From assembly GCA_028688225.1 (NCBI GenBank), contig JAQTYQ010000009.1:1-64000 (forward strand): a stretch of 64,000 nt of DNA, in the 5' to 3' direction. The notes beneath the pieces are model-generated. The model had not been told where the DNA came from. It searched no databases and worked only from the letters and a program-made list of their open reading frames with translations. A program made the position numbers and the translations under genes. Numbering within the stretch: the stretch's first letter is position 1; each line of letters opens with the position of its first letter. Of this stretch, positions 1,174-48,906 are shown in pieces. Origin of the DNA: Opitutaceae bacterium (GTDB lineage Bacteria > Verrucomicrobiota > Verrucomicrobiia > Opitutales > Opitutaceae).

Positions 1174-4100
1174 ATGAGCCGTAATACCTTCTTTACGGCG
1201 GGCGTGCTGTGCACGGCTGCCGTGATAAGCTTTGCGATTAGTCCGAGACTGCTCGGCCAAGCCGCTCCGGGTCAGTCTACGACTGACGAAAAAACGGAGA
1301 AGACAGAGAAGACCGAAGAGGTGGTGAAACTCTCACCGTTCATTGTCGAATCCGAGGAAACCGGGGACTACGCTGCCAACAGCACCTTGGCCGGCACACG
1401 GGTGCGGACGGACTTGAAAGACGTGGCCGCCTCCATCAGTGTGGTGACCAAACAGTTTCTCCAAGACACGGCAGTCAGGAACGCCCAGGATCTGCTGGTC
1501 TACACCCCGAGCACGGAAGTGGGCGGTATACGCGGCAACTTCTCCGGGATTGCCGGCCAGAAGGTTCCGAACGAGTCGAAATTGCTCGCCAACCCCAGCA
1601 CCAACAACCGCGTACGCGGGCTGGATGCGGCGGACTCCACCCGCGACTACTTCCTGACCGACATTCCGTGGGACAGCTTCAATACCGGGCGCATTGATTT
1701 GCAGCGCGGACCGAACTCGATCCTGTTCGGCGTGGGCAGCCCGGCAGGCATCATCAATGCCAGCATTAATGATGCGAGTTACAAGACTGCCTACAAGGTC
1801 GAGAACTCTATTGATGAGTATGGCTCATTACGGAATGTGGGCGATTTCAATCAGGTCCTAGTGCCCAATCAGTTGGCGGTGCGGGTCTCGCTGTTGGACG
1901 ACCGGCAAAAATTCCAGCAAAAGCCGGCTTTCCTTGATCAAAGCCGCGTCTACGCGGCCCTGCGTTACGACGCGAAACTCTTCGGCGAAGGCAACCTCAC
2001 GACCATCCGGATTAAGTACGAGGATGGCAGGGTTAATTCCAACTACCCGCGCAGCATCCCGCCGAATGATCGCATCACGCCTTGGTTCGGTGATCCCTAC
2101 AACAAGGCGACGATCGACACCAACAAGTATGGCTTCGGCTCGCTTGCGGCGAACAACCCCGCCGTTACTCTGTGGAAGCCGGGTGGCAATCTCATCTTTC
2201 AGGGTCTGGCCAGCACGGTGGATGTGCGCTCCTGGTACAACGGAGCCAACGCCGCCGGCACCCTGCCGACCTTCAGCAACAATCCAACGACGGTCATGGT
2301 GGGCATGATCAATGCCGGCATCAAAGGCTTGAATAGTCAGGCCTACCGTCCTTTCGCCATCGCGCCCTATTCGATTATGGCGAACGCCACGCTGCCGGGT
2401 GGCTCATTCTACCTGGACAAGGTGCTCACGGACAGCACGGTTTTCAACTTTTTCGACAATCTTCTCGACGGTCCGAACAAGCACGAATGGCAGGACTGGG
2501 ATGCACTTAACATCGATTTGCAACAGTCCTTCTTCAAGAACCGCCTCGCCTTCGACTTCACCTACGACAAGCAGAGCTTCTTGTTAGGTCAGGTGAGTTG
2601 GATGGCCGGCAGCGACTACGGGATCGGCATCGAAGTCAACGAGACGTTTCCGGACGGCAGCGCCAACCCCAACGTGGGCCGGCCTTACGTCACCGGAACC
2701 GACGCGTTTGGCAATGCCAACTTTAAGAGTGATCGGGAAGGCAAACGTGGGATCGTGACCGTCGACCTGAAGTCCGAAGACTACTTCGGAATGAATTGGT
2801 TCAGCTATATCCTTGGGCGTAGCGTCTTCACCGGCTTGGCCGCGGTGGATACGCGGGACACCAAGCAGGTCCAGTGGGCGCAGCACGCCACCACGCCGGA
2901 CCTGATCGACTTACTCGGCCAGGGCGCTCAAGCCTATGCCAACATCGTCGGCACCCGGCAGTATGACTGGCTCTACTACATCGGTCCGAGCCTGAAGACG
3001 GCCGCCTCCGCGCACGGGGCGAATGTCAGTCGCATTCTGTCACCCCTGACCCCGGCCAACAGCACGACCGTCAGGTATTTCAATTCCAGGTGGGCCGTGT
3101 CCACCGATCCCACACAAGCCGGCTATGTGAATCCGACCGCGTCTTACAGCTACTTTAATAATAATGACGCCAACCCCCGGAATGATGTGGGCGTGCAGAC
3201 CGACAATCCCGCCAACTACGCGGGCTGGACCAATGGCGGGGTCACCTGGCTCAGCGCCTCCAATCCGGCGGACTTCCCCAGCCTGGTCACCGGCGGACAG
3301 AGGGACACCTTCAAGGACGATTCCCGGGGCTTCACCTGGCAGGGCTACCTGCTGGGCGGCGACTTGGTTCCCACCTTCGGCTGGCGCAAGGACACCGTCA
3401 CCTATCGCGCGGCGGCCGCCCAGGTGAATTCCGCCACGGGCATCGCTCCGCTGGAATACGACCTCGATCCCGCGACCGCCCGTCAGGCGACCGGTCAGAG
3501 CCGCAATTGGAGCGGTGTTTATCACCTGCCTGCCAAGCTTACGTCCAAGCTGCCCTGGAATACGCAGCTCAGCGTCTTCTACAATGAGTCGAGCAACTTC
3601 AAGGCGGACGCGCCTCGCCGCAATTTGATCGGCGACCTCATTGCCAACCCCCAAGGCAAGACTCGCGAAAAGGGTTTCGTCATTTCCACGCTGGACGACC
3701 GGGTCACCCTGCGCGCGACCTGGTTTGAGACCAGGGTGGCCAACGCCACCCTCGCCGCCGGCGGCGGCGCCATCTTCGGCCCCAACGCCTATCAATTGCA
3801 CCGTCTCTAGGCCATGGGCCTAATAAACGCCTCCATGGTGCAGGATACGATGAACGGCAACGGGGGGTTTTTTTCCACTGGGAATATCTGGCCGGGTGAC
3901 TACTTATCGTCCGCGGGGTTTACTAACTTCGCCTACGCCGATGGCGTTCCCGGTGTCCAGCCGGGCGACGACCTCACGAACACCAGTCCGACCTCCGCCT
4001 ACCAGACCGCCCAGCAGACGATCGACATGAGAAAAATGGTCACCGCTTGGCTCAACATGCCGGCGTTCATGAACAAGCAGTATTACCAGTACTGGAACAC

Positions 4101-4905
4101 GCAAATTCCGATCGACCCCAGCCTAGCGAAAGCGAGCGGGGTGCTGCGCGACGCCTTTGGCGCCGCCGTGGGCGCCACGGACGCCACCACTTCGTTCTTA
4201 AATGCTCTGATCCCCACGCTGGGCATCCCCCCGGCCCTGCCGGTCACGACCATGGACACCTTCGCGAAAGGTCAGGAATTTGAGGTCTACATGCGCTTGA
4301 AACAGAACTGGAATGTCAGCCTGAACTACGTGCGTACCGAGGCTACCCGCGACAACATCGACGGGGCCACCGTCGCCGCGATGAACGAAATGAACACCTT
4401 CTACAGCGGCGACGCTGGCTTCATGCGCCAGTTTGGCCTGACGGGCGCGAGCAACATGTTTAAGAACATCTGGCGGGACTCCCTCTGGCTGCCCTACCAG
4501 GTGCTCTTGTCCTCGCAGGGACAGTCTGCCCCCGAGGTATCGCCGTGGAGACTCAACGGCGTCACGACCTACACCTTCGACCATGGCCGCCTGAAGGGGC
4601 TCTTCGTCGGCGGTGCGGCCCGGTTGGAGGCAGGACGCATCGAAGGCTACCGGTACAGCAGCGATTTGGGTTTCCTCGATGTCAGCAAGCCGCTGATGGG
4701 TCCGAACGACGAGCATTTCGACATGTGGGTCGGTTACCAGCGCAAGTTGACCCACAACGTCAACTGGCGCATCCAGCTCAACCTGCGCAATGTCGGCGAA
4801 AAGACCCGGCTGGTCCCGTCTTACTACGAGCCCGATGGCTCGCTGGCCTTGGCCCGCATCCAGCAGGGTATGGAGTGGCAGTTTAGCAATACATTTGAGT
4901 TCTAA
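1174..4905 (+). pseudogene. TonB-dependent receptor, interrupted by one in-frame TAG at 3808-3810
   Basis: Signal peptide, VVKLSPF motif, plug (GTRVRTDLKDVAASISVVTKQFLQDTAVRNAQDLL) and beta-barrel ending ...EWQFSNTFEF. Paralogue of 6370-10065. Reading continues in the same frame after TAG (CTC TAG GCC ATG GGC). Confidence 0.85.
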
Positions 4906-6369: not shown

Positions 6370-9300
6370 ATGAGCCGTAAATTTTTTACGGCGGGCGTGC
6401 TGTGCACGGCTGCCGTGATGAGTTTTGCGATTGGGCCGAAGCTGTTCGGCCAGGCTGCCCCCGAGCAGCCCACAACCGACGAGAAGACCGAAGAGGTGGT
6501 GAAACTCTCGCCGTTCGTCGTCGAATCCACCGAAGGTGAGAACACCTACACCGCGGAAAGCACGCTGGCCGGCACGCGGGTGCGCACCGACCTCAAGGAT
6601 GTGGCCGCCTCCATCAGCGTGGTGACCAAGCAGTTCCTTCAAGACACGGCGGTCAGGAATGCCCAGGATCTGCTGGTCTATACGCCCAGCACCGAGGTGG
6701 CGGGCATCGGCGGTAATTTCTCCGGATCGGCTGGACTAAAGACCTATAACGAATCGAGCAAGTTGGTCAATCCGGACACGAACAACCGCGTGCGCGGCCT
6801 GGATGCGGCAGACATGACGCGCGACTACTTCCTGACGGACATTCCGTGGGACAGTTTCAACGTGGGCCGCATCGACCTGCAGCGCGGGCCGAACTCCATT
6901 CTGTTCGGCGTTGGCAGCCCGGCCGGCATCATCAATGCCAGCATCACCGGTGCGAGTTACAAAACCACTTATAAAATCGAGAATGCCATCGATCAGTATG
7001 GTTCCTTCCGCAGCATGGGCGATTTCAACTATGTTCTATTGCCCAATCAGTTAGCGATACGTGTCTCGCTGTTGAACGACCAGGCGAAGTACCAGCAAAA
7101 GCCGGCTTTCAACAATCAGAACCGCGTCTATGCCGCTCTGCGCTACGATCCGCAGCTTTTGGGTGAGCACAACCGCACGACCATTAATGTGAAGTTCGAA
7201 AATGGCACGGTCAAATCCAACAATCCGCGCATTCTGCCGCCGCTCGACTTGGTCACGCCGTGGTTCAGCAGTCCCTACGACAAACAGACGATCAACACCT
7301 ATACTCCAGGGAAGGGTTCCCTTTCAAACGATCCGGTGGTCGCCTTGTATGCGCTGGGTGGCGACTTTGCCTTCCAGGGGCGTGGAGGCGGGGTTGATGT
7401 CAAGTCTTATTACAACGGTGTCGCCTCGGGTGTGACCCCGGTGGCGAGCAATGCGCCGACCAGTGTCATCGTGGGCATGATCAACGCTGGAATTGCCGGC
7501 CTGAATAACCAGGCCTATCGCCCCCTGAGCGTGCCGGTATATGCCGCTTACGCGCTGCGGAATCTTGAGGGTGGCTCTTTCTACGTGGACAAGGTGCTGA
7601 CGGATTCGACGGTCTTCAATTTCTACGATAATCTGCTCGACGGCCCCAACAAGCGGGAATGGCAGAATTGGAACGCCTTGAATGTCGACCTCACGCAGAC
7701 CTTCTTCGACGATCGTCTGGCCATCGATTTAACCTATGATCGTCAGATTTACAACTCGGGGCAGATTTCCTGGCTCACCGGCACCTACTACGCCATCGGC
7801 GTCGAGGTTAACGAGACGATGGCAGATGGGACCGCCAACCCCAATGTGGGACGCCCCTACGTGGCCAGTTCCGATTCGTCCGGCAACAATTCCTATAACA
7901 GCGTTCGGGAGAACAAGCGGGCCATTGTCACGGCCGATCTGCGATCCGAGGATTATCTGGGCAAGAATTGGCTGAGTTACATCCTGGGCCGGAGCGTTCT
8001 CACCGGGTTGGCGAACCAGGAGAACAAGCAAACGCAGTATGTCTTCTGGGCCCAGCATGCCACGACCCCGGATATCATCAACATCTTCGGCTATGAGGGG
8101 ACGCAGGCGGCTGCGACGGTGAACGACCTCGCCACCACCCGGCAATACGAGTGGCTCTATTACCTCGGGTCCAGCCTGAGCAGCAAGAGTTCGGCGGCGG
8201 GGGCCAATCTCTCGCGGATCCAAATGAAGCTCGATCCGGGCGCCAGCACTGCTGTCAAGTATTTCAATACTACTTGGAATAAGGGCACTACGGTTGATCA
8301 AAACGCCGCGTACAGCTATGTCGATTACAACACCGGCTTGACCGTGACCGACTCCTTTCAATATGCCAACCCCGCCAACTACGTCGGTTGGACGCAAGGC
8401 GGGGTCAATTGGCTGAGTGCCGACAATCCGGCGGATTTCCCCAGCTTGGTGACAGGCGGCGAGCGGACGAAATACCAGGATCGCTCCCAAGGCTTCACCT
8501 GGCAGGGCTACCTGCTGGATGGCGATCTGGCGGTCACGTTTGGCTGGCGCAAAGACACGGTCAGCAATTACCAAAACACCGCGCCGAAAAACTCGCTCAC
8601 GGGTGTCTCCGCGCTAACTTACGATCTCAATCCGACCAGCCTCCGTGTGGCGACCGGCCAGAGCCGGAATTGGAGCGGTGTTTTCCACCTGCCCAAGAAA
8701 TTGACCTCCAAGCTGCCGTGGGGCACGACCATCAGCCTGCTCTATAACGATTCGAGCAACTTCAAGGCCGATGCACCGCGCCGCAATCTCGTGGGTGCCA
8801 TCATTCCCAATCCGCAAGGGAAAACGCGGGAAAAGGGCTTCATGATCACCACCTTGAATGACCGCCTCAGCTTGCGGGCCACTTGGTACAAGACCGTGGT
8901 GAGCAATGCGACCCTTGCCTCGGGTTCGACCGCGATTTTTGGCAGCGGTGGCTATCTCATGTATCAACTCCAGGAATTGGCCTATATCATGGCGGCCATG
9001 GTCCAGGACGCCCAGAACGGCATCTCCGACGGCGCGCAGCCCTATGGTCTTGATCAATATTTCGCCGACCAGGGGTGGACGAATTATGCCTACAAGGATA
9101 ATGTTTCCGGTGTGCACTATTATGACAATTTTACCAATACGAGCGCGAGCTCCGCATACCAGACCGCAGCGCAGACCATCAATGCGAAGAAGGCAGTGCA
9201 AGCGTGGCTGAATACACCGGCCATCATGACCAAGGACTTCTACGCCTACTGGAACAGTCCGATTCCCTTCGATCCGTCCCTGGCCAAGGCCAGCGGAAAT

Positions 9301-10065
9301 CTCCACGATGCATTTGGTACAGCCGGATTTCCTACGGCCAGCCCCTTGAGCGATTTCTATAGCTTGGTTGGCGTATTGAGTCCTTCTGGCAGCAACCTGC
9401 CGGTCACCACGGTAGATACGCTCGCGGAAGGTCAGGAGTACGAACTCGCGTTCAAGCCGCTCAAGAACTGGAACGTGTCTGTGAACTACGTCCGGACCCA
9501 CGCCACGCGGACGAATCTAGACTCTACCACGCGCGCTTATATGGAAGAGTTCAATACTTTCTACAGCGGCGACGCGGGACTATTGCGTATGTGGGGCCAA
9601 CAGTCATCGGTCTTCCTGGTAAGTAACCTATGGATGAATAACCTCTGGTTGCCCTACCAGGTTGCCCTTGCTTCCCAAGGACAGTCCGCCCCCGAGGTGT
9701 CGCCGTGGCGGCTCAACGGCGTCACGACCTACACCTTCGACCATGGCCGCCTGAAGGGGCTCTTCGTCGGCGGTGCGGCCCGGTTGGAGGCAGGACGCAT
9801 CGAAGGCTACCGGTACAGCAGCGATTTGGGTTTCCTCGATGTCAGCAAGCCGCTGATGGGTCCGAACGACGAGCATTTCGACATGTGGATCGGTTACCAG
9901 CGCAAGTTGACCCACAACGTCAACTGGCGCATCCAGCTCAACCTGCGTAATGTCGGTGAAAAAACGCGGTTGGTTCCGGCCTACTATGAGCCCGATGGCT
10001 CGCTGGCCCTCGCCCGCATCCAGCAGGGCATGGAGTGGCAGTTCACCAACACGTTTGAGTTCTGA
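6370..10065 (+). CDS. TonB-dependent receptor (full-length paralogue)
   Basis: Starts MSRKFFTAGVLCTAAVMSFAIG..., VVKLSPFVVES, plug domain, ends ...GMEWQFTNTFEF. The tracked ORF from 6049 has an artefactual N-terminal extension. Confidence 0.92.
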   Translation: MSRKFFTAGVLCTAAVMSFAIGPKLFGQAAPEQPTTDEKTEEVVKLSPFVVESTEGENTYTAESTLAGTRVRTDLKDVAASISVVTKQFLQDTAVRNAQDLLVYTPSTEVAGIGGNFSGSAGLKTYNESSKLVNPDTNNRVRGLDAADMTRDYFLTDIPWDSFNVGRIDLQRGPNSILFGVGSPAGIINASITGASYKTTYKIENAIDQYGSFRSMGDFNYVLLPNQLAIRVSLLNDQAKYQQKPAFNNQNRVYAALRYDPQLLGEHNRTTINVKFENGTVKSNNPRILPPLDLVTPWFSSPYDKQTINTYTPGKGSLSNDPVVALYALGGDFAFQGRGGGVDVKSYYNGVASGVTPVASNAPTSVIVGMINAGIAGLNNQAYRPLSVPVYAAYALRNLEGGSFYVDKVLTDSTVFNFYDNLLDGPNKREWQNWNALNVDLTQTFFDDRLAIDLTYDRQIYNSGQISWLTGTYYAIGVEVNETMADGTANPNVGRPYVASSDSSGNNSYNSVRENKRAIVTADLRSEDYLGKNWLSYILGRSVLTGLANQENKQTQYVFWAQHATTPDIINIFGYEGTQAAATVNDLATTRQYEWLYYLGSSLSSKSSAAGANLSRIQMKLDPGASTAVKYFNTTWNKGTTVDQNAAYSYVDYNTGLTVTDSFQYANPANYVGWTQGGVNWLSADNPADFPSLVTGGERTKYQDRSQGFTWQGYLLDGDLAVTFGWRKDTVSNYQNTAPKNSLTGVSALTYDLNPTSLRVATGQSRNWSGVFHLPKKLTSKLPWGTTISLLYNDSSNFKADAPRRNLVGAIIPNPQGKTREKGFMITTLNDRLSLRATWYKTVVSNATLASGSTAIFGSGGYLMYQLQELAYIMAAMVQDAQNGISDGAQPYGLDQYFADQGWTNYAYKDNVSGVHYYDNFTNTSASSAYQTAAQTINAKKAVQAWLNTPAIMTKDFYAYWNSPIPFDPSLAKASGNLHDAFGTAGFPTASPLSDFYSLVGVLSPSGSNLPVTTVDTLAEGQEYELAFKPLKNWNVSVNYVRTHATRTNLDSTTRAYMEEFNTFYSGDAGLLRMWGQQSSVFLVSNLWMNNLWLPYQVALASQGQSAPEVSPWRLNGVTTYTFDHGRLKGLFVGGAARLEAGRIEGYRYSSDLGFLDVSKPLMGPNDEHFDMWIGYQRKLTHNVNWRIQLNLRNVGEKTRLVPAYYEPDGSLALARIQQGMEWQFTNTFEF

Positions 10066-10596: not shown

Positions 10597-12465
10597 ATGC
10601 GTGCCCATCGGTTGATTCCATCCCTGGCGAGATTTCTGCAGTCGAAAGTAGCAGCCGACGTCAGGAGGCTGTCGAAAGGTGAGCGACTTGCCTTCAGCCT
10701 CGTTACCTCGGCTGCTACGTGGTCCTGCAGCCAGTGCACGCTGGTGGCGCTTGCCCTGGGGATGGCCGCCGTCGGCCATGCCCAAGACCAATACGCGATC
10801 ATCTTCGAGAACAACGTCGCGATGAAGACGCGCGACGGCGTGACGCTGCGGGCGGATATTTATCGCCCCAAGGCCGATGGGAAATTCCCCGTGCTGCTCG
10901 AACGCACGCCGTACAACAAATATACGAACATCGATTCCGGGTTGAAGGCCGCGGCCCGGGGGTACGTCTGCATCATCCAGGATGTGCGGGGGCGCTTTGC
11001 CTCCGAGGGTAAGTGGTATCCCTTCAAGTACGAATCGCAGGACGGTTATGACGCCGTGGAATGGGCCGCTGCGCTGCCGTACGCAAACGGCAAGGTCGGC
11101 ACGATCGGCGGATCGTATGTAGGCACCACGCAGATGCTCCTGGCCGTCGCTGCGCCGCCCCACCTGGTGGGGATCAATCCGATGATCACGGCCTCCAATT
11201 ATCATGCCCATTGGGCCTATCAGGGCGGCACCTTCATGCAGTTGCTCGCGCAGGCCTGGAGCAGCGTTCTGTCGATCCACGAGCTTGAACGGCGGGTAGG
11301 AGGGACGGCCTTGCCGACCTACTGGGACCTGAAGCGGCCGCCGTCCGAGTATCCCTTGTTGGATCCGGGCACGTCGAAGGGTCTGGCCGATTATTATTTC
11401 GATTGGATCGCCCACCCGACCTACGACGATTATTGGAAACAGTGGTCGATCGAGGAGCGCTTCGACAAGATCACGGTGCCGGCGCTGCACATCGCCGCGT
11501 GGTACGACCTGTTTCAAGACGGCTCCATCCGGAATTACATGGGCATTAAGCGCCAGGGCGGCAGCGCGGCGGCCCGGCAGGGCCAGCGCCTGGTGATCAT
11601 TCCCGGCGGGCATGCCGGTTTCGGCCAGAAAATCGGCGAGGTCGATTTCGGCAAGGATTCGGTGCTGGACACGTGGGGGTACGGCCTGCGCTGGTACGAC
11701 CATCTGCTGAAAGGGATCGACAACGGGATCGCCCAAGAGAAGCCCGTGAAAATCTTCGTCATGGGGAGGAACGTCTGGCGCGACGAGGACGACTGGCCGC
11801 TGGCGCGGGCCAAGCCCACGCGCTACTACCTGCACTCGGAAGGGAAGGCCAATATGCTCAGCGGCGACGGCCGGCTGAGTCTGACGCCTCCCGCCAGCGA
11901 GCCGGCGGACAAATACGTCTACGATCCGAACGATCCCATGCCCACGCATGGCGGCGCGCCCTTGGGGGATTTGGTGAGATACCCGGCCGGTCCGCTTGAT
12001 CAGCGGGCGGTGGAAAGCCGGCCGGACGTGCTGGTTTACACGACGCCCGCCTTCGAACAGGACACGGAGGTGACCGGGCCGGTGAGCCTGGAGCTCTATG
12101 TCAGCTCTTCGGCGGTGGACACGGATTTCACGGGCAAGCTGGTCGATGTATGGCCGAACGGGTTTGCGCAGAACCTGACGGACGGGATTCTGCGCATGCG
12201 CTACCGGGGGTCGATGGAGAAGGTCGAGCTGATGAATCCGGGGGAGGTCTACAAAGTGACGATCGACCTGTGGTCGACGGCAAACGTCTTCCTGGCGGGT
12301 CACAAACTGCGGCTGGAAATCGCGAGCAGCAACTTTCCCCGCTTCGACCGCAATCCCAACACGGGCGACAACCCGGAGAAGGCGACCCGGCACATTCCGG
12401 CCACCAATGTGATCCATCATGACCAGGATCACCCCTCAGCCCTGATCGTGCCGGTTGCGCCCTGA
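10597..12465 (+). CDS. CocE/NonD family hydrolase (X-Pro dipeptidyl-peptidase S15-like), copy 1
   Basis: KTRDGVTLRADIYRPKADGKFPVLLERTPY, GTIGGSYVGTTQMLLAV nucleophile region, C-terminal jelly-roll-like domain. N-terminus overlaps a palindromic repeat. Confidence 0.88.
   Translation: MRAHRLIPSLARFLQSKVAADVRRLSKGERLAFSLVTSAATWSCSQCTLVALALGMAAVGHAQDQYAIIFENNVAMKTRDGVTLRADIYRPKADGKFPVLLERTPYNKYTNIDSGLKAAARGYVCIIQDVRGRFASEGKWYPFKYESQDGYDAVEWAAALPYANGKVGTIGGSYVGTTQMLLAVAAPPHLVGINPMITASNYHAHWAYQGGTFMQLLAQAWSSVLSIHELERRVGGTALPTYWDLKRPPSEYPLLDPGTSKGLADYYFDWIAHPTYDDYWKQWSIEERFDKITVPALHIAAWYDLFQDGSIRNYMGIKRQGGSAAARQGQRLVIIPGGHAGFGQKIGEVDFGKDSVLDTWGYGLRWYDHLLKGIDNGIAQEKPVKIFVMGRNVWRDEDDWPLARAKPTRYYLHSEGKANMLSGDGRLSLTPPASEPADKYVYDPNDPMPTHGGAPLGDLVRYPAGPLDQRAVESRPDVLVYTTPAFEQDTEVTGPVSLELYVSSSAVDTDFTGKLVDVWPNGFAQNLTDGILRMRYRGSMEKVELMNPGEVYKVTIDLWSTANVFLAGHKLRLEIASSNFPRFDRNPNTGDNPEKATRHIPATNVIHHDQDHPSALIVPVAP
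10637..10730. repeat. Family A MITE-like palindromic element, copy A1
   Basis: TGCAGTCGAAAGTAGCAGCCGACGTCAGGAGGCTG ... CAGCCTCGTTACCTCGGCTGCTACGTGGTCCTGCAG. Confidence 0.75.
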
Positions 12466-12511
12466 AGGACGGCGGTGCCGGTTTTTCATACTTATTGGCC
12501 AGGAGCATTCC

Positions 12512-14401
12512 ATGCATCTAAATCGACTGATTCTGCCCTTAGCGGCTATCCGGAAACACTGTTTACGCGGAATTTCATTGGGTCTTCGTAGGGGCGCGAT
12601 CTTGTCGCGCCCTCGAAAATGGGCGCAGCAAGCCTGTGCCCCTACCTTAAAACACACACTGGTTGCCGCGACCCTCGGCGTTGCCGCCGTCGGCGGCGCG
12701 CAGGACCAGTATCAGGTCGTCTTTGAAAACAACGTCGCGATGAAGACGCGCGACGGCGTGACGCTGCGGGCGGACATTTACCGACCCAAGGCTGACGGCA
12801 AATTTCCCGTTCTGCTCCAGCGCACGCCTTACGACAAATATCAGCTGGGCGGCATCAATTTTGGACTGAGGGCCGCGGCCCGGGGGTACGTCTGCATCAT
12901 CCAGGATGTGCGGGGCCGCAATGCCTCTGAGGGCGAGTGGTACCCTTTCAAGTACGAATCGCAGGACGGCTACGACGCCGTGGAATGGGCCGCCGCGCTG
13001 CCGTACGCGAACGGCAAGGTCGGCATGTTCGGACTGTCCTACATCGGGGCCACGCAGATGCTCGCCGCCATGGCGTCGCCGCCCCATCTGGCGGGGATAT
13101 TCCCGATCATCACCGCCTCCAACTATTACGGCCACTGGGTCTACCAGGGAGGGGCCTTCGAGCAGTTGTTCAATCAAGCCTGGTGCAGCGCCTTGGCGGT
13201 CCATGAGCTCGGGCGGCGGGCGGGCGGGACGGCCCTGCCGACGTACTGGGACCTGAAGCGGCCGTCGACCGAGTATCCCCTGCTGGAACCGGGCCCAGCA
13301 AAGGGCCTGGCCGGCTATTACTTCGATTGGATCGCCCATCCGGCCTACGACGACTATTGGAAACAGTGGTCGATCGAGGAGCATTTCGACAAAATCACGG
13401 TGCCGGCGCTGCATCTCGCCGCTTGGTACGACATATTTCTGGACGGCTCCCTCCGGAATTATGCGGGCATCAAGCGCCAGGGCGGCAGCGCGGCGGCCCG
13501 GCAGGGCCAGCGCCTCGTGGTCATCCCCGGCGGGCATGCCGGCGTAGGGCCCAAACTGGGCGAGATCGATTTCGGCAAGGATTCGGTGCTGGATTCATGG
13601 GAGCTGGGTCTGCGCTGGTACGACCATCTGTTGAAAGGCATCGACAACGGGATGGCCCGGGAGAAGCCCGTGAGGATCTTCGTCATGGGGAAGAACGTCT
13701 GGCGCGACGAGGACGACTGGCCGCTGGCGCGCGCCAGGCCCACCCGGTACTACCTGCACTCCGAGGGGAAGGCCAACACGCTCAGCGGCGACGGCCGGCT
13801 GAGTCTGGCGCCTCCCACCAGCTCCGCCGCCTCGGCGCGAGCCAGTGAGCCGGCAGACAAATACGTCTACGATCCTGACGATCCCACACCGACGCAGGGC
13901 GGAGCCCTCATCGGTGGTCCTCCCGGTCCCCTCGATCAACGGGCGGTGGAAAGTCGGTCGGACGTGCTGGTCTACACGACCCCGGCCTTCGAACAGGACA
14001 CAGAGGTGACCGGGCCGGTGAGCCTGGAGCTCTATGTCAGCTCTTCGGCGGTGGACACGGATTTCACGGGCAAGCTGGTCGATGTGTGGCCGAACGGATT
14101 TGCGCAGAACCTGACGGACGGGATCTTGCGCATGCGCTACCGGAATTCGATGGAGAAGGCCGAGCTGATGAATCCCGGGGAGGTCTACAAGGTGACGATC
14201 GACCTGTGGTCGACCGCCAATGTCTTTCTGGCGGGTCACAAGCTGCGACTGGAAATCGCGAGCAGCAACTTCCCCCGTTTTGACCGCAATCCCAACACCG
14301 GCGGCGGCCCGGAGAGTTCCGCCGCGCACATTCCGGCCACCAATGTGATCCATCATGACCAGGATCACCCCTCAGCCCTGATTGTGCCGATCGTGCCCTG
14401 A
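12512..14401 (+). CDS. CocE/NonD family hydrolase, copy 2
   Basis: Closely related to 10597-12465 over the mature protein. ATG preceded by GGAGC; signal-peptide region contains an inserted palindromic repeat. Confidence 0.88.
   Translation: MHLNRLILPLAAIRKHCLRGISLGLRRGAILSRPRKWAQQACAPTLKHTLVAATLGVAAVGGAQDQYQVVFENNVAMKTRDGVTLRADIYRPKADGKFPVLLQRTPYDKYQLGGINFGLRAAARGYVCIIQDVRGRNASEGEWYPFKYESQDGYDAVEWAAALPYANGKVGMFGLSYIGATQMLAAMASPPHLAGIFPIITASNYYGHWVYQGGAFEQLFNQAWCSALAVHELGRRAGGTALPTYWDLKRPSTEYPLLEPGPAKGLAGYYFDWIAHPAYDDYWKQWSIEEHFDKITVPALHLAAWYDIFLDGSLRNYAGIKRQGGSAAARQGQRLVVIPGGHAGVGPKLGEIDFGKDSVLDSWELGLRWYDHLLKGIDNGMAREKPVRIFVMGKNVWRDEDDWPLARARPTRYYLHSEGKANTLSGDGRLSLAPPTSSAASARASEPADKYVYDPDDPTPTQGGALIGGPPGPLDQRAVESRSDVLVYTTPAFEQDTEVTGPVSLELYVSSSAVDTDFTGKLVDVWPNGFAQNLTDGILRMRYRNSMEKAELMNPGEVYKVTIDLWSTANVFLAGHKLRLEIASSNFPRFDRNPNTGGGPESSAAHIPATNVIHHDQDHPSALIVPIVP
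12588..12645. repeat. Family B palindromic element inside the CocE2 leader
   Basis: GTAGGGGCGCGATCTTGTCGCGCCCTCGAAAATGGGCGCAGCAAGCCTGTGCCCCTAC. Confidence 0.7.
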
Positions 14402-17060: not shown

Positions 17061-20000
17061 ATGAGAACCAGCATTCAGCGCATCCGGATCGGCGGCAACG
17101 TGTGGCTTCATCCATGTTGGTCCAGTATCCTGCTTCTTTTCACCGCGACCCTCCTGCCGGCGCCGGTCCGGGGTCAGACCACCTACACGCCGTACACCTT
17201 TACCACGCTGGCGGGGCGCGCGAGCATGGGCCATGACGATGGAGCCGCGACGGGTGCGCGCTTCAATCGGGCAACTTCCGTCGCCGTGGACAGCCAGGGC
17301 AACACCTACGTGGCGGACACGGATAACAGCACGATCCGCAAGATCACGCCGGATGGCACGGTGAGCACGTTGGCCGGCTCGCCTGGCGACATCGGCAGCA
17401 CCGATGGCAGCGGCAGTCAGGCAAGGTTCTTTTTCCCCGCCGGCGTGACGGTGGATGCCGCGGACGATATTTATGTGGCCGACACCGGCAACAACACGAT
17501 TCGCAAAATCACGCCGGCGGGCGTGGTCACGACCCTGGCGGGTACGGCCGGCACCAGCGGTTTTACCGACGGAACTGGTGCTGACGCCCGTTTTGATCTG
17601 CCCACCGGTCTGACCGTAGACGACACCAACAACGTCTACGTGGCAGACACGGGCAACAATCTCATCCGTCGGATCACGCCGGCGGGCGTGGTCACCACCT
17701 ATGCCAGCGTAGGCACTCTGCAGAACCGGGGTAGTGTGGACGGGACCGGAAGTGGCGCAAATTTCAACGGTCCGTACAGCACGGTGGTGGACAGCACCGG
17801 CAATCTTTATGTGTCCGATAACGGCAACCATACGATCCGCAAGATCACGCCGGCGGGCGTGGTCACCACTCTGGCAGGCACGGCCGGCACCGCCGGCAGT
17901 GCGGACGGCACGGGCCCGGCGGCGTTGTTGCAAAATCCCACCGGCGTGGCGGTGGACGGCTCCGGTAATATTTACGTGGCCGATACCGGCAACCATACGA
18001 TCCGCAAGATCACGCCGGCGGGCGTGGTCACGACCTTGGCGGGTACGGCCGGCACCGCCGGCAGTGCGGACGGCACGGGCCCGGCGGCGTTGTTGCACAG
18101 TCCCGCCGGCGTGGCGGTGGACAGCGCGGGCAACATTTATGTGTCTGACAACGGCAATTATACGATCCGCAAGATCACGCCGGCGGGCGTGGTCACGACC
18201 CTGGCGGGTACGGCCGGCACCGCCGGCAATGCGGATGGCACCGGCAGCGCCGCGCTTTTCGCCGGTCCGATCGGAATCGGGGTCGACGGTTCGGGTAACG
18301 TCTATGTGGCAGATCCCAGCAACGCCGTGATTCGCAAGATCACGTCGGCGGGCGTGGTCACCACCTTCGCCGGTTATCCCGGCATCCCTGGCACCGTGGA
18401 TGGCACGGGCACGGGTGCGCAGTTCAATTCCCCGATCGGGCTGGCCGTGGACGGCTCCGGCAATATTTATGTGGCGGACACCGGCGGGAATACCATTCGG
18501 AAAATCACTTCGGCGGGCGTCGTCACTACGCTGGCTGGCATCGGGGGCTTGAAAGGCACCACGGATGCCCTCGGAACCGCCGCTCGTTTCAGTTCCCCGA
18601 CGGGCGTGTCCGTCGACAGTGCGGGCAATCTGTATGTCGCGGACTATTCCAACAACCTGATTCGGAAAGTAGCACCCGACGGCACCGTGAGCACGCTGGC
18701 GGGTTCACGTGGGAATGCAGGCTATGTGAATGGTGCGGGCAGTGCCGCGCGGTTCAACTCACCCGGCGGGCTGACCATCGACCATCTGGGAACCCTGTAT
18801 GTGGCGGACACCGGCAACAATACCATCCGGGAAATCAACTCCAGCGGGGTCGTGACCACCTTTGGCGGTTCGGCGGTGGATATCAGCACCCCCTACCGGG
18901 ACGGACTGACCAACATCGCGCGGTTCAACCAACCCGCCGGCGTGGCGGCGGATGATGCCGGCAACCTGTACGTGGCGGATACTGCCAACAGCGTCATCCG
19001 GAAGATCACGCGCGCCGGCGTGGTCAGCACGCTGGCGGGAACAGCCGGGGTGCTCGGCATGACCGACGGGGATGGCGATTCTGCGGTATTCAACCAGCCG
19101 GCCGGAATCGCGGTGGACGGCACCGGCACGGTTTACGTGGCCGACACCCAAAACAGTGCCATCCGTAAAATCACGGCGGCCGGAGTCGTGACCACCTTCG
19201 CTGGCGCCGGACTGGCGGGCAGCAAAGGCTCCACGGACGGCTCTGCCGCCGCTGCGCGGTTTAACGAGCCTTCCGGGATCGCGATCGATCAGGCGGGGAA
19301 TATTTATATCGCCGATACCAACAACAACATGATCCGGAAGATCGCGCCGGACGGCACTGTCACCACCCACAGCAGCAGCACCGGCGTGGGCATCGCGGCG
19401 TCCTATAAGTACCCCACCGGCGTCGTAGTCGATGGTTCCGCCAACATCTATGTCGCCAATTCCCGCAACGCCACGATCGAGAAAATCACTCCTACTCCTG
19501 ACGGGACAATCATCACGCTGGCGGGAACGGCCGCGACCACGGGGAGCGCGGACGGGACGGGCGCACTCGCCCGGTTTGCCCTCCCCCAGGCCATTGCCTT
19601 GGACAATGTCGGCAATCTCTATGTGACCGACACCAACAACCATACCATCCGCAAGGTCACCGCCGCCGGCGGTGTGGTGACGACCCTGGCCGGCACGGCC
19701 GGAACCGCCGGTAGTACGGATGGCACCGGCACGGCGGCGTTGTTCCGCAATCCCGCCGGCGTGGCGGTGGACAGCGCCGGCAATGTCTATGTAGCGGACA
19801 CCGGCAACCATACGATCCGCAAGATCACTGCTGATGGCGTGGTGACGACCCTGGCTGGCACGGCCGTAACCGCCGGTAGTACGGATGGCACCGGCACGGC
19901 GGCGTTGTTCTACAACCCTACCGGCGTGGCGGTGGACAGCGCCGGCAATGTCTATGTAGCGGACACCGGCAACCATGTCATCCGCAAGGTCACCTCTGCC

Positions 20001-21638
20001 GGGGTGGTGACAACCCTGGCCGGAATCCCGGGAACTTTTGGCAGCACGGACGGCTCGGGCAGCGAGGTTCTGTTCTATTTACCGTCGGGCATTGCGGTGG
20101 ATGCCGGCGGCAATGTCTATGTGGCGGACACCCTGAACAACACGGTGCGCAAGGGCCTGCCGACATCAGACGGATCCGGCGGCAGCGGTGGATCTGGCGG
20201 CAGTGGTGGATCCGGTGGCAGCGGCTCAGGAGGGGGCACCGGCGGGACGAGCGGATCGAGCGGCACCGGCAGTTCGGTGATCGACAATGCCGGCAGCACG
20301 GGAGGGAAAGCATTGTTCCTGTATCCCACCAGCGTCGGGATCGATGGTTCGGGCAACGCCTATGTGACGGACGCATCCTATAACACCGTCCAGAAAATCA
20401 CATCCTCGGGCTCGGTTAGCACATTTGCGGGCACCGCCGGTGTTGCCGGCATGCGTGATGGCTCGGGCAGTGGCGTCTTTTTCAATCAGCCGGGTGGCAA
20501 TGTCGTGGACGGCGCCGGCAATGTCTATGTGGCGGACACTGGCAATGCCACGATTCGCAAAATTGCTCCGGATGGCACCGTGACCACGGTTGCTGGATCG
20601 GCCTCGAACCGGGGTAACCAGGATGGCAGTGGCACGAGCGCCTCGTTTTCCTCTCCCAACGGCATCGCGCTGGACAGCGCCGGCAACGTCTATGTGGCCG
20701 ACTCCTTCAACGAGACCATCCGCAAAATCACCCCGGCCGGTGTCGTCACGACGCTGGCTGGTGCGGCTGGGAGCCGGGGCGATGCGGATGGCACTGGCAG
20801 CGCTGCCCGGTTCAATTATCCCGCGGGGGTGGCGGTGGACAGCTCTGGCAATGTTTATGTGGCCGATGCCTACAACGACACCATCCGCAAAATCACCCCG
20901 GGTGGAGTGGTCACGACGCTGGCCGGATCGGCGGGCATCAGCGGCAGCAATGATGGCACGGGGATCTACGCGCTGTTCAACCAGCCGATCGGACTGGCCA
21001 CCGACGGCTCCGGCAACGTCTATGTGGCGGACACCGGCAATGCCACGATCCGCAAGGTCATGCCGGATGGCACCGTGACCACGGTGGCAGGCATGGCCGG
21101 GATCGCCGGTATGCGCGATGGCGCCGGGAGCAGCGCGCTGTTCAACCAACCACGGAGCGTTGCCTTGGACAGCACGGGCAATCTTTATGTGGCGGACACC
21201 GGCAATGCCGCGATCCGCAAGATCGCGCTCGACGGCACGGTCTCCACCCTGGCTGCGACACCCGCCGGTGCCGAGCCCCCTGTCATCATCACCCAGCCAG
21301 CGGGCGGGACGACGGTCGTCGGTTCTTCCGGCAGTTTCGGTGTCGTTGCCAGCGGCTCACCCGCGCCGACTTACCAGTGGCGCAAGGACGGGGCTGACAT
21401 TGCCGGGGCGACCAGCGACATCTATACGATCACCAATGTCGCATTGAGCGACGCCGGCATCTACACGGTCGTGGTCACCAATTCCGCCGGTTCCGTCACG
21501 AGCAACGGCGCCATCCTCACGGTCACCACGGCCGCGGACGGCACCTCCTCGGGCAGCGGCGGCGGGTCGATGGAGGCATGGTTTGCCGGCATGCTGGCCC
21601 TGCTGGGAGTGATACGGTGGATGACGCGAAAAAGCTAG
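17061..21638 (+). CDS. NHL-repeat secreted protein with C-terminal Ig-like domain and GlyGly-CTERM-like sorting tail
   Basis: Many [39 protein letters not shown] repeats, Gly/Ser linker, Ig-like [36 protein letters not shown], and tail [30 protein letters not shown]. Confidence 0.88.
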   Translation: [1525 protein letters not shown]

Positions 21639-28326: not shown

Positions 28327-28363
28327 ATGCAGTTGGCCTGTAGCAGCCGACGTAAGGAGGCTG
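28327..28363. repeat. Family A element, half copy A2
   Basis: ATGCAGTTGGCCTGTAGCAGCCGACGTAAGGAGGCTG. Confidence 0.65.
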
Positions 28364-29726: not shown

Positions 29727-29854
29727 AGCCGGAACCATGCAGTCGAACGTAACAGCCGACGTGAGGAGGCTGGTACGCAGGTGATCGGCCGCTGCCAGCC
29801 TCGTTACCTCGGCTGCTACCGCGGTGCGCCGATCTCGACTGCATGGTTCCGGCT
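29727..29854. repeat. Family A MITE-like element, copy A3, complete with 20-bp perfect TIRs
   Basis: AGCCGGAACCATGCAGTCGA (29727-29746) and TCGACTGCATGGTTCCGGCT (29835-29854) are exact reverse complements; core AACAGCCGACGTGAGGAGGCTG...CAGCCTCGTTACCTCGGCTGCTAC. Confidence 0.85.
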
Positions 29855-37288: not shown

Positions 37289-37383
37289 GGTGGGGAGGGT
37301 TTAGCGGGTGAATGGAGGTTCGACTGAACAGCACCGGGTAATACGCCGCCCATGCCGCCACCCCCTCGAAAATGCAGGGCGGC

Positions 37384-37421
37384 TGCCAGATTGATGATCC
37401 GATCGGATCATCAATCTGGCA
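37384..37421. repeat. Family C 38-bp palindrome, copy C1 (perfect)
   Basis: TGCCAGATTGATGATCCGATCGGATCATCAATCTGGCA is its own reverse complement. Confidence 0.85.
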
Positions 37422-39230: not shown

Positions 39231-39320
39231 GTAGCAGCCGAGGTAACGAGGCTGGGGGCTGGCCACCCGCTTTCCACCAGCCTCCTGACGTCGGCTGCTA
39301 CACCCGACTGCATAGATCCG
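39231..39320. repeat. Family A element, copy A4 (inverted)
   Basis: GTAGCAGCCGAGGTAACGAGGCTG ... CAGCCTCCTGACGTCGGCTGCTACACCCGACTGCATAGATCCGGCT. Confidence 0.75.
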
Positions 39321-48302: not shown

Positions 48303-48348
48303 CCTTCGTCGCGCCCTCGGAAATCGACGCAGCCAGCCTGCGCCTTAC
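48303..48348. repeat. Truncated family B element
   Basis: CCTTCGTCGCGCCCTCGGAAATCGACGCAGCCAGCCTGCGCCTTAC resembles the 12583-12645 element and its upstream flank. Confidence 0.5.
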
Positions 48349-48509
48349 GATCCTTCGGAGATTTTCGGACCGCCTCAGCCAGTTGGGAACTTCCTCGCGC
48401 CAGCCATGCCGGCGCGCCTGACGAGGCCGTCACAATCCTTCCGGTGTCCGCCGGCCGTTTATCCCTTCGCTTTCCGGGCCCTCCGGGTTCCCACGGCTGG
48501 GCGACTCCA

Positions 48510-48547
48510 TGCCAGATTGAGGTTCCGGTCGGTATATCAATCTGGCA
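48510..48547. repeat. Family C palindrome, copy C2
   Basis: TGCCAGATTGAGGTTCCGGTCGGTATATCAATCTGGCA, 38 nt. Confidence 0.75.
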
Positions 48548-48599
48548 ATTCTGGCGCCGGTGTGGGTCTTTATTTCGGAATGAAGGTAATAGGTTTTGC

Positions 48600-48637
48600 T
48601 GCCAGATTGATAATCCGGTCGGATCATCAATCTGGCA
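48600..48637. repeat. Family C palindrome, copy C3
   Basis: TGCCAGATTGATAATCCGGTCGGATCATCAATCTGGCA, 38 nt. Confidence 0.8.
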
Positions 48638-48906
48638 GGTTGAGCCAAGACTAATTTTCTCCGGCGATGATGGCCGCGCCAGCTGCAGCCTGATCAGCCG
48701 GCCGAGCCAAGGGCCCATCTGGCGCGGAGGGACAGATCCGTTTTTACCGATAACCTCCGCCCCAGGCGGCAGGCAATCCTCGGCGGCGAAACCGACCCGC
48801 CGGCAATCGGCGGGGTCCCGGGGCATCGCGGCCACGCATCCGGAGTGCCCACCTGGCGGTCATTTTGGGGTTGGGCCGCCGGGCATTAGCCGATTCCCTC
48901 CAGGTC

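Follow-up and report, generated by a model that had tools for sequence, protein, structure and literature searches.

Unrelated REPIN-bearing elements at one in-frame point in the putative signal peptides of tandem CocE-type hydrolase genes

Introduction

How could two neighbouring paralogous genes each come to carry, within the short stretch that encodes their signal peptide, a palindromic element of a different family, and still remain open from end to end? The question is raised by two hydrolase genes, here CocE1 and CocE2, that stand in tandem in a draft genome of an Opitutaceae bacterium (assembly GCA_028688225.1, here G000; contig JAQTYQ010000009.1). We analysed the first 64,000 nucleotides of this contig, called the window in what follows, together with the rest of the genome and its relatives. 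Our reading, to which we give a probability of about 0.8, is that two unrelated elements would have inserted independently at the same signal-peptide point of the two paralogues and that they are translated through, export of the products being probably kept.

That REPs may lie in frame within genes is already known. GTAG REPs inside open reading frames have been listed, the largest number being that of Opitutus terrae, and different REPs occupy about one site of the recB genes of Xanthomonas; the same authors note that many N-terminal cases may reflect misannotated starts (Di Nocera et al. 2013, PMC3733652). The novelty of the present case lies in two sister genes that were both hit at one codon of the signal peptide, accompanied by the evidence of uninterrupted paralogues.

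Results

The tandem genes and their leaders

Both reading frames are intact and full-length, and Pfam detects Peptidase_S15 and PepX_C in each product, which places both in the CocE/NonD hydrolase class. The two genes are under purifying selection, with a dN/dS of 0.21 between them and values of 0.19-0.22 across all the CocE pairs compared. Three uninterrupted CocE paralogues are found elsewhere in the genome; the leader of the nearest, CocE3 (contig C42), begins MHPNRFILLLVAGALGIVARGYAQDQY. Upstream of the tandem lies another one, made of duplicated TonB-dependent receptor genes (window 1189-4764 and 6382-9924).

The leader of CocE1 reads MRAHRLIPS-[39 aa]-LVALALGMAAVGHAQDQY and that of CocE2 MHLNRLILP-[40 aa]-LVAATLGVAAVGGAQDQY. 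Once the inserts are taken out in silico, the leaders of CocE1, CocE2 and CocE3 are each 27 residues long and align without a gap, so that, to judge from this alignment, the insertion point is common to the two genes and falls directly after codon 9, give or take about one codon. The initial annotation had proposed that each of the tandem genes harbours a different in-frame palindrome in its signal-peptide region, flanked by sequence similar between the paralogues, and that unrelated repeats landed at nearly the same site without breaking the frame. All of this is borne out by the intact frames, the folds and dispersed copies of the elements, and the gap-free leaders. The full non-native stretches, outer arms included, are longer than the extents that it had given, 10637-10730 and 12588-12645 (Table 1).

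Table 1. Predicted features of the two CocE genes, and further copies of the elements in the window
Feature	Position	Strand	Basis
CocE1, CocE/NonD-type hydrolase, REPIN A in leader	10597..12465	+	ORF; Peptidase_S15 and PepX_C, Pfam E 2e-55 and 1e-56
CocE1 native signal-peptide start MRAHRLIPS (left half)	10597..10623	+	aligns with CocE3 MHPNRFILL
CocE1 in-frame insert, 117 nt = 39 codons, putative composite element A, right arm shortened	10624..10740	+	gap-free leader once removed; family alignment
Degenerate left outer arm (inverted repeat) of element A	10625..10647	+	16/23 positions as in family form TAGCGGGATCCATGCAGTCGAGT, counted by eye
REPIN A, GTAGCAGCCGACGTCAGGAGGCTG ... CAGCCTCGTTACCTCGGCTGCTAC, two inverted GTAG-tagged REPs	10648..10718	+	fold; family alignment
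CocE1 native h- and c-region LVALALGMAAVGHAQ (signal-peptide right half)	10741..10785	+	leader alignment
CocE2 Shine-Dalgarno AGGAG, counterpart of GAGGA before CocE3 start	12501..12505	+	sequence
CocE2, CocE/NonD-type hydrolase, REPIN B in leader	12512..14401	+	ORF from ATG 12512; Peptidase_S15 and PepX_C
CocE2 native signal-peptide start MHLNRLILP (left half)	12512..12538	+	aligns with CocE3 MHPNRFILL
CocE2 in-frame insert, 120 nt = 40 codons, putative composite element B, right arm shortened	12539..12658	+	left arm TTAGCGGCTATCCGG... matches C105 copy
REPIN B, GTAGGGGCGCGATCTTGTCGCGCC ... GGGCGCAGCAAGCCTGTGCCCCTAC	12588..12645	+	fold; same REP class flanks RAYT genes
CocE2 native h- and c-region LVAATLGVAAVGGAQ (signal-peptide right half)	12659..12703	+	leader alignment
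Further REPIN A copy, full outer inverted repeats, TCA/TCA target duplication	29749..29819	+	family alignment
Further REPIN A copy	39231..39301	-	
Element B copy with internal deletion	48304..48344	+	

The orthologues of other genomes, wherever their leaders were readable, have ordinary short signal peptides, none with a comparable insert; the best Opitutaceae matches among them are 67-69% identical, and most of the close orthologues with a name come from this family. The annotation had suggested aligning such leaders and had named repeat-free orthologues with the same N-terminal residues as the finding that would count against it; neither insert occurs in any leader read, and no such orthologue was seen. 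As for traces of target duplication, CTGG at 10624-10627 recurs at 10741-10744 on the far border of the CocE1 insert, a possible duplication, and the corresponding motifs at CocE2 are TTAG and CTGG. The exact ends of the inserts are uncertain by about one codon, because CTGG differs from the TNA found at other A copies and because both right arms are shortened.

Two families of elements

Each insert is best described, from its sequence and predicted fold, as a pair of GTAG-tagged REPs, that is a REPIN, inside a longer MITE-like element with outer inverted repeats. The REP of family A has the form GTAG+CAGCC...GGCTG and that of family B GTAG+GGGCGCGA-TCTTG-TCGCGCCC. In both families a tagged imperfect hairpin is paired with its inverted partner in one larger fold (z = -5.4 for REPIN A and -5.2 for REPIN B, with 0 of 200 dinucleotide shuffles as good) and many copies are dispersed in the genome. 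Counted from search output and retrieved regions, family A occupies about 45 places and family B about 25 (53 and 25 matches when overlaps are included); a pattern search located 32 REPIN intervals of the former and 12 of the latter in this genome. In the window, a further A copy or half copy lies at 28340-28363.

In family A the REPIN core stands between the outer inverted repeats GCSGGATCCATGCAGTCGAGT ... TCGACTGCATGGATCCSGC. Duplications of 3 bp, of the form TNA, border several copies, including that at 29749-29819, and these, with the outer repeats GCSGGATCCATGCAGTCGA, the absence of a transposase gene and a TCA duplication matched by an empty site in congeners, are features of a MITE. A consensus put together by eye from the copies is 129 nt long and has a single open frame on either strand; together with a 3-bp duplication it keeps the frame. 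The 117-nt insert of CocE1 corresponds to this 129-nt plus 3-bp unit less 15 nt of its right arm. Family B is built differently from copy to copy, some having outer arms CTAG-AAGCTATCCGAAAACC / GGTTTTCGGATAGCTT-CTAG and others consisting of the REPIN alone. The copy on contig C105 is 88% identical to the CocE2 insert over 101 nt, left arm included. The C105-type unit measures 130 nt, a length that would shift the frame, and this is why the shortening of the right arm in CocE2 probably restored it.

Family B REPs flank two RAYT (Y1_Tnp) genes, on contigs C98 and C84, with GTAG+GGGCGC..TCTTG..GCGCCC hairpins on both sides. None of the Y1_Tnp genes found in the genome has an A-type REP beside it, so that the name REPIN-like is given to family A on structural grounds only. 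Family A was not found in ten relatives (five congeners and five other members of the family), the search of its own genome serving as positive control. Family B is present in congeners, with 33 matches in one of them (G005).

The same families inside other genes

Besides CocE1 and CocE2, six genes or more, on several contigs, hold a member of family A or B in frame; such entry into protein genes is also the manner of the Rickettsia palindromic elements. Intragenic cases were accepted by Pfam or homology, because a codon-usage score separated true from spurious frames poorly. Family A was found in this position in genes for a CcoI-type copper ATPase, a CcoG protein, a hybrid sensor kinase and a spermidine-synthase-like protein. 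Two signal peptides are interrupted by family B: one belongs to a GH28 protein and reads MKTSVN-[insert]-RILLSLFTGACLLSLVTVVLAQD, the other to a glycosidase-like protein. In the congener G005 a further B copy lies in frame in a signal peptide at locus L266, as MTRLSCPTIRESI-[insert]-WILAGAIFAGAVARAADPA. Empty sites could be read in congeners for CcoI, CcoG and the sensor kinase. The insert of the last, 77 residues long, corresponds to zero bases between the flanking residues in congeners G002 and G004, and its TCA duplication can be read directly from the sequences; that of CcoI is a bare REPIN of 72 nt.

Many long open frames that overlap other copies were discarded as shadow frames. Three further candidates, the BatA-like L111, the Sua5-like L087 and L264 of congener G005, were not accepted as intragenic cases since a normal start follows the REPIN; at L264 the family B copy lies directly before or within the leader of a secreted protein. 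L087 has on its minus strand, close to the REPIN at 1525-1583, an outer repeat of element A (ACTGCATGGATCC or ACTGCATGGTTCC) with an ATG which may be the start codon of the Sua5-like gene. The gene at L074 had no relative among 19 genomes and no Pfam match.

In-frame positions within signal peptides account for 4 of the roughly 44 located REPIN intervals in this genome and for 1 of 25 in congeners. On the assumption that about 1% of the genome encodes signal peptides, the Poisson probability of four in 44 is near 0.001; this excess is to be taken as a lead only, because it was counted post hoc and on surviving readable cases alone. Tolerance probably explains it, as the n-region can lengthen and is then cleaved off.

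Discussion

Where translation starts, and whether the hits were independent

A natural objection is that the repeats belong to the 5' untranslated region and that translation begins downstream of both inserts, as has been argued for N-terminal REPs of P. putida, C. koseri and S. maltophilia (PMC3733652). The in-frame TTG codons 12578 and 12602 of CocE2 are possible alternative starts, from which a charged leader followed by the hydrophobic core would result, and CocE1 has an in-frame ATG at 10762. However, the start, the Shine-Dalgarno sequence and the first nine codons of CocE2, all upstream of the insert, match those of the uninterrupted CocE3. No clear Shine-Dalgarno precedes the start of CocE1; here it is the downstream candidates that fail, GTG 10744 and ATG 10762 lying inside the hydrophobic core or past its beginning, so that only the upstream ATG yields a complete signal peptide. 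Between the insert and the core of CocE1 there is no in-frame ATG, GTG or TTG, and both inserts, with the segments upstream of them, are free of stops in the correct frame. We consider downstream starts unlikely.

Independent entry can be questioned in another way, if a single insertion had preceded the duplication of CocE1 and CocE2 and had then been replaced by, or recombined with, a member of the other family. The shared insertion point lends itself to this scenario, as does the threonine codon (ACG in one gene, ACA in the other) that adjoins the right end of both inserts. Yet the two inserts have no recognisable sequence in common, each fits its own family with its left outer arm included, and no mixed A/B copy was seen; such a replacement strikes us as improbable. 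A last possibility is decay or misassembly of the CocE genes, in which case the in-frame inserts would be meaningless. The genome is a 4.3-Mb draft in 129 contigs with an estimated contamination of 6%, and the contig was used as deposited. Against this, the CocE frames are full-length with a dN/dS of about 0.2, and several further conserved genes, spread over different contigs, hold the same families in frame at sites that are empty in congeners. We regard this last explanation as very improbable indeed.

A possible course of events

Two independent insertions thus being preferred, we may sketch how they would have come about and what they would entail. Each insert would be a small non-autonomous mobile element, with a REPIN within a longer unit bounded by outer inverted repeats, and families A and B would have entered the leaders of CocE1 and CocE2 independently, at one point. 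The spread of element B is probably due to RAYT transposases, whose genes have the same REPs at their borders. That the same point was hit twice could reflect how few sites of a dense gene tolerate an insert of 40 residues, a target preference having possibly helped. Translation would start at the native ATG and read through the palindrome, giving a product that includes insert peptides such as LAFSLVTSAATWSCSQCTLVALALGMAAVGHAQ. The n-region of the pre-protein would grow from about 9 to about 48 residues and keep a net positive charge: the lengthened regions count 8 basic and 2 acidic residues (+6) in CocE1, 10 basic and no acidic ones (+10) in CocE2. The Kyte-Doolittle value of the hydrophobic core over 12 residues is 2.34 for CocE1, where it is unchanged, and 2.16 for CocE2, where it is slightly lower. 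As this core and the AQ cleavage site remain, export is predicted to be probably kept and the insert shed with the signal peptide.

One might go further and suppose that mobile palindromes which leave the frame unchanged repeatedly find refuge in signal-peptide n-regions, element A being perhaps selected for intragenic survival. This is a speculative extension that we hold to be rather doubtful; were it true, cleaved leaders would take up inserts while the mature protein stays unaltered.

Relation to known systems

The closest parallel is found in Opitutus terrae, of the same bacterial family as far as we can judge, where inverted GTAG pairs lie in frames of known function and encode 20-30 residues. 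In contrast to those cases, the native start of CocE2 is backed by an uninterrupted paralogue, the insert splits a signal peptide, and the elements also have outer inverted repeats. The likeness to Rickettsia palindromic elements, put forward in the initial annotation, is right as an analogy of behaviour rather than as membership. Those palindromes of about 100-150 bp also lie in frame in many unrelated protein genes whose products are apparently functional (PMC2229807, PMC10969869), whereas the present ones occur in a different phylum and have the structure of GTAG-tagged REPs, the comparison being one of behaviour and not of sequence. With the REPINs and RAYTs of Bertels and Rainey (2011, PMC3116915) they share two inverted GTAG REPs per unit, and also RAYT genes that stand between B-type REPs of inverted orientation. 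Typical REPINs are extragenic, while those of CocE1 and CocE2 lie within genes, and many copies add outer inverted repeats and 3-bp target duplications; family A further departs from REPIN/RAYT systems in that no RAYT was found for it in this genome. The single case of an in-frame MITE in a signal peptide that we found in the literature is Yersinia YPO1552 (Delihas, in PMC2229807), in which a small mobile element is likewise translated as part of the signal peptide. There, the element helps to build a new exported protein; here, an existing signal peptide is interrupted.

Comparison makes this locus a clear example of REP-type elements that seem to be translated within signal peptides and not to lie in misannotated 5' regions. 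Paired sites and an uninterrupted paralogue in one genome make a testbed for the tolerance of long n-regions, and the empty sites of congeners allow a direct measure of how REPINs spread in frame through dense genomes. It is also an unusual example of tightly packed genomes that tolerate mobile DNA.

Other observations

Other repeats share this genome with the two families. Palindromes of other kinds are nested in REPIN copies at L080, L103 and L106, the last still in frame within its open reading frame. In the window, a separate palindromic family (CTGCCAGATTGATGATCC...), unconnected with A and B, occurs at 37383-37421, 48508-48547 and 48598-48638. An IS200-like Y1_Tnp transposase reading at 128-630, split over two frames and containing stops, is probably a decayed copy, and a large NHL-repeat protein encoded at 17279-21295 is made of 165-bp units.
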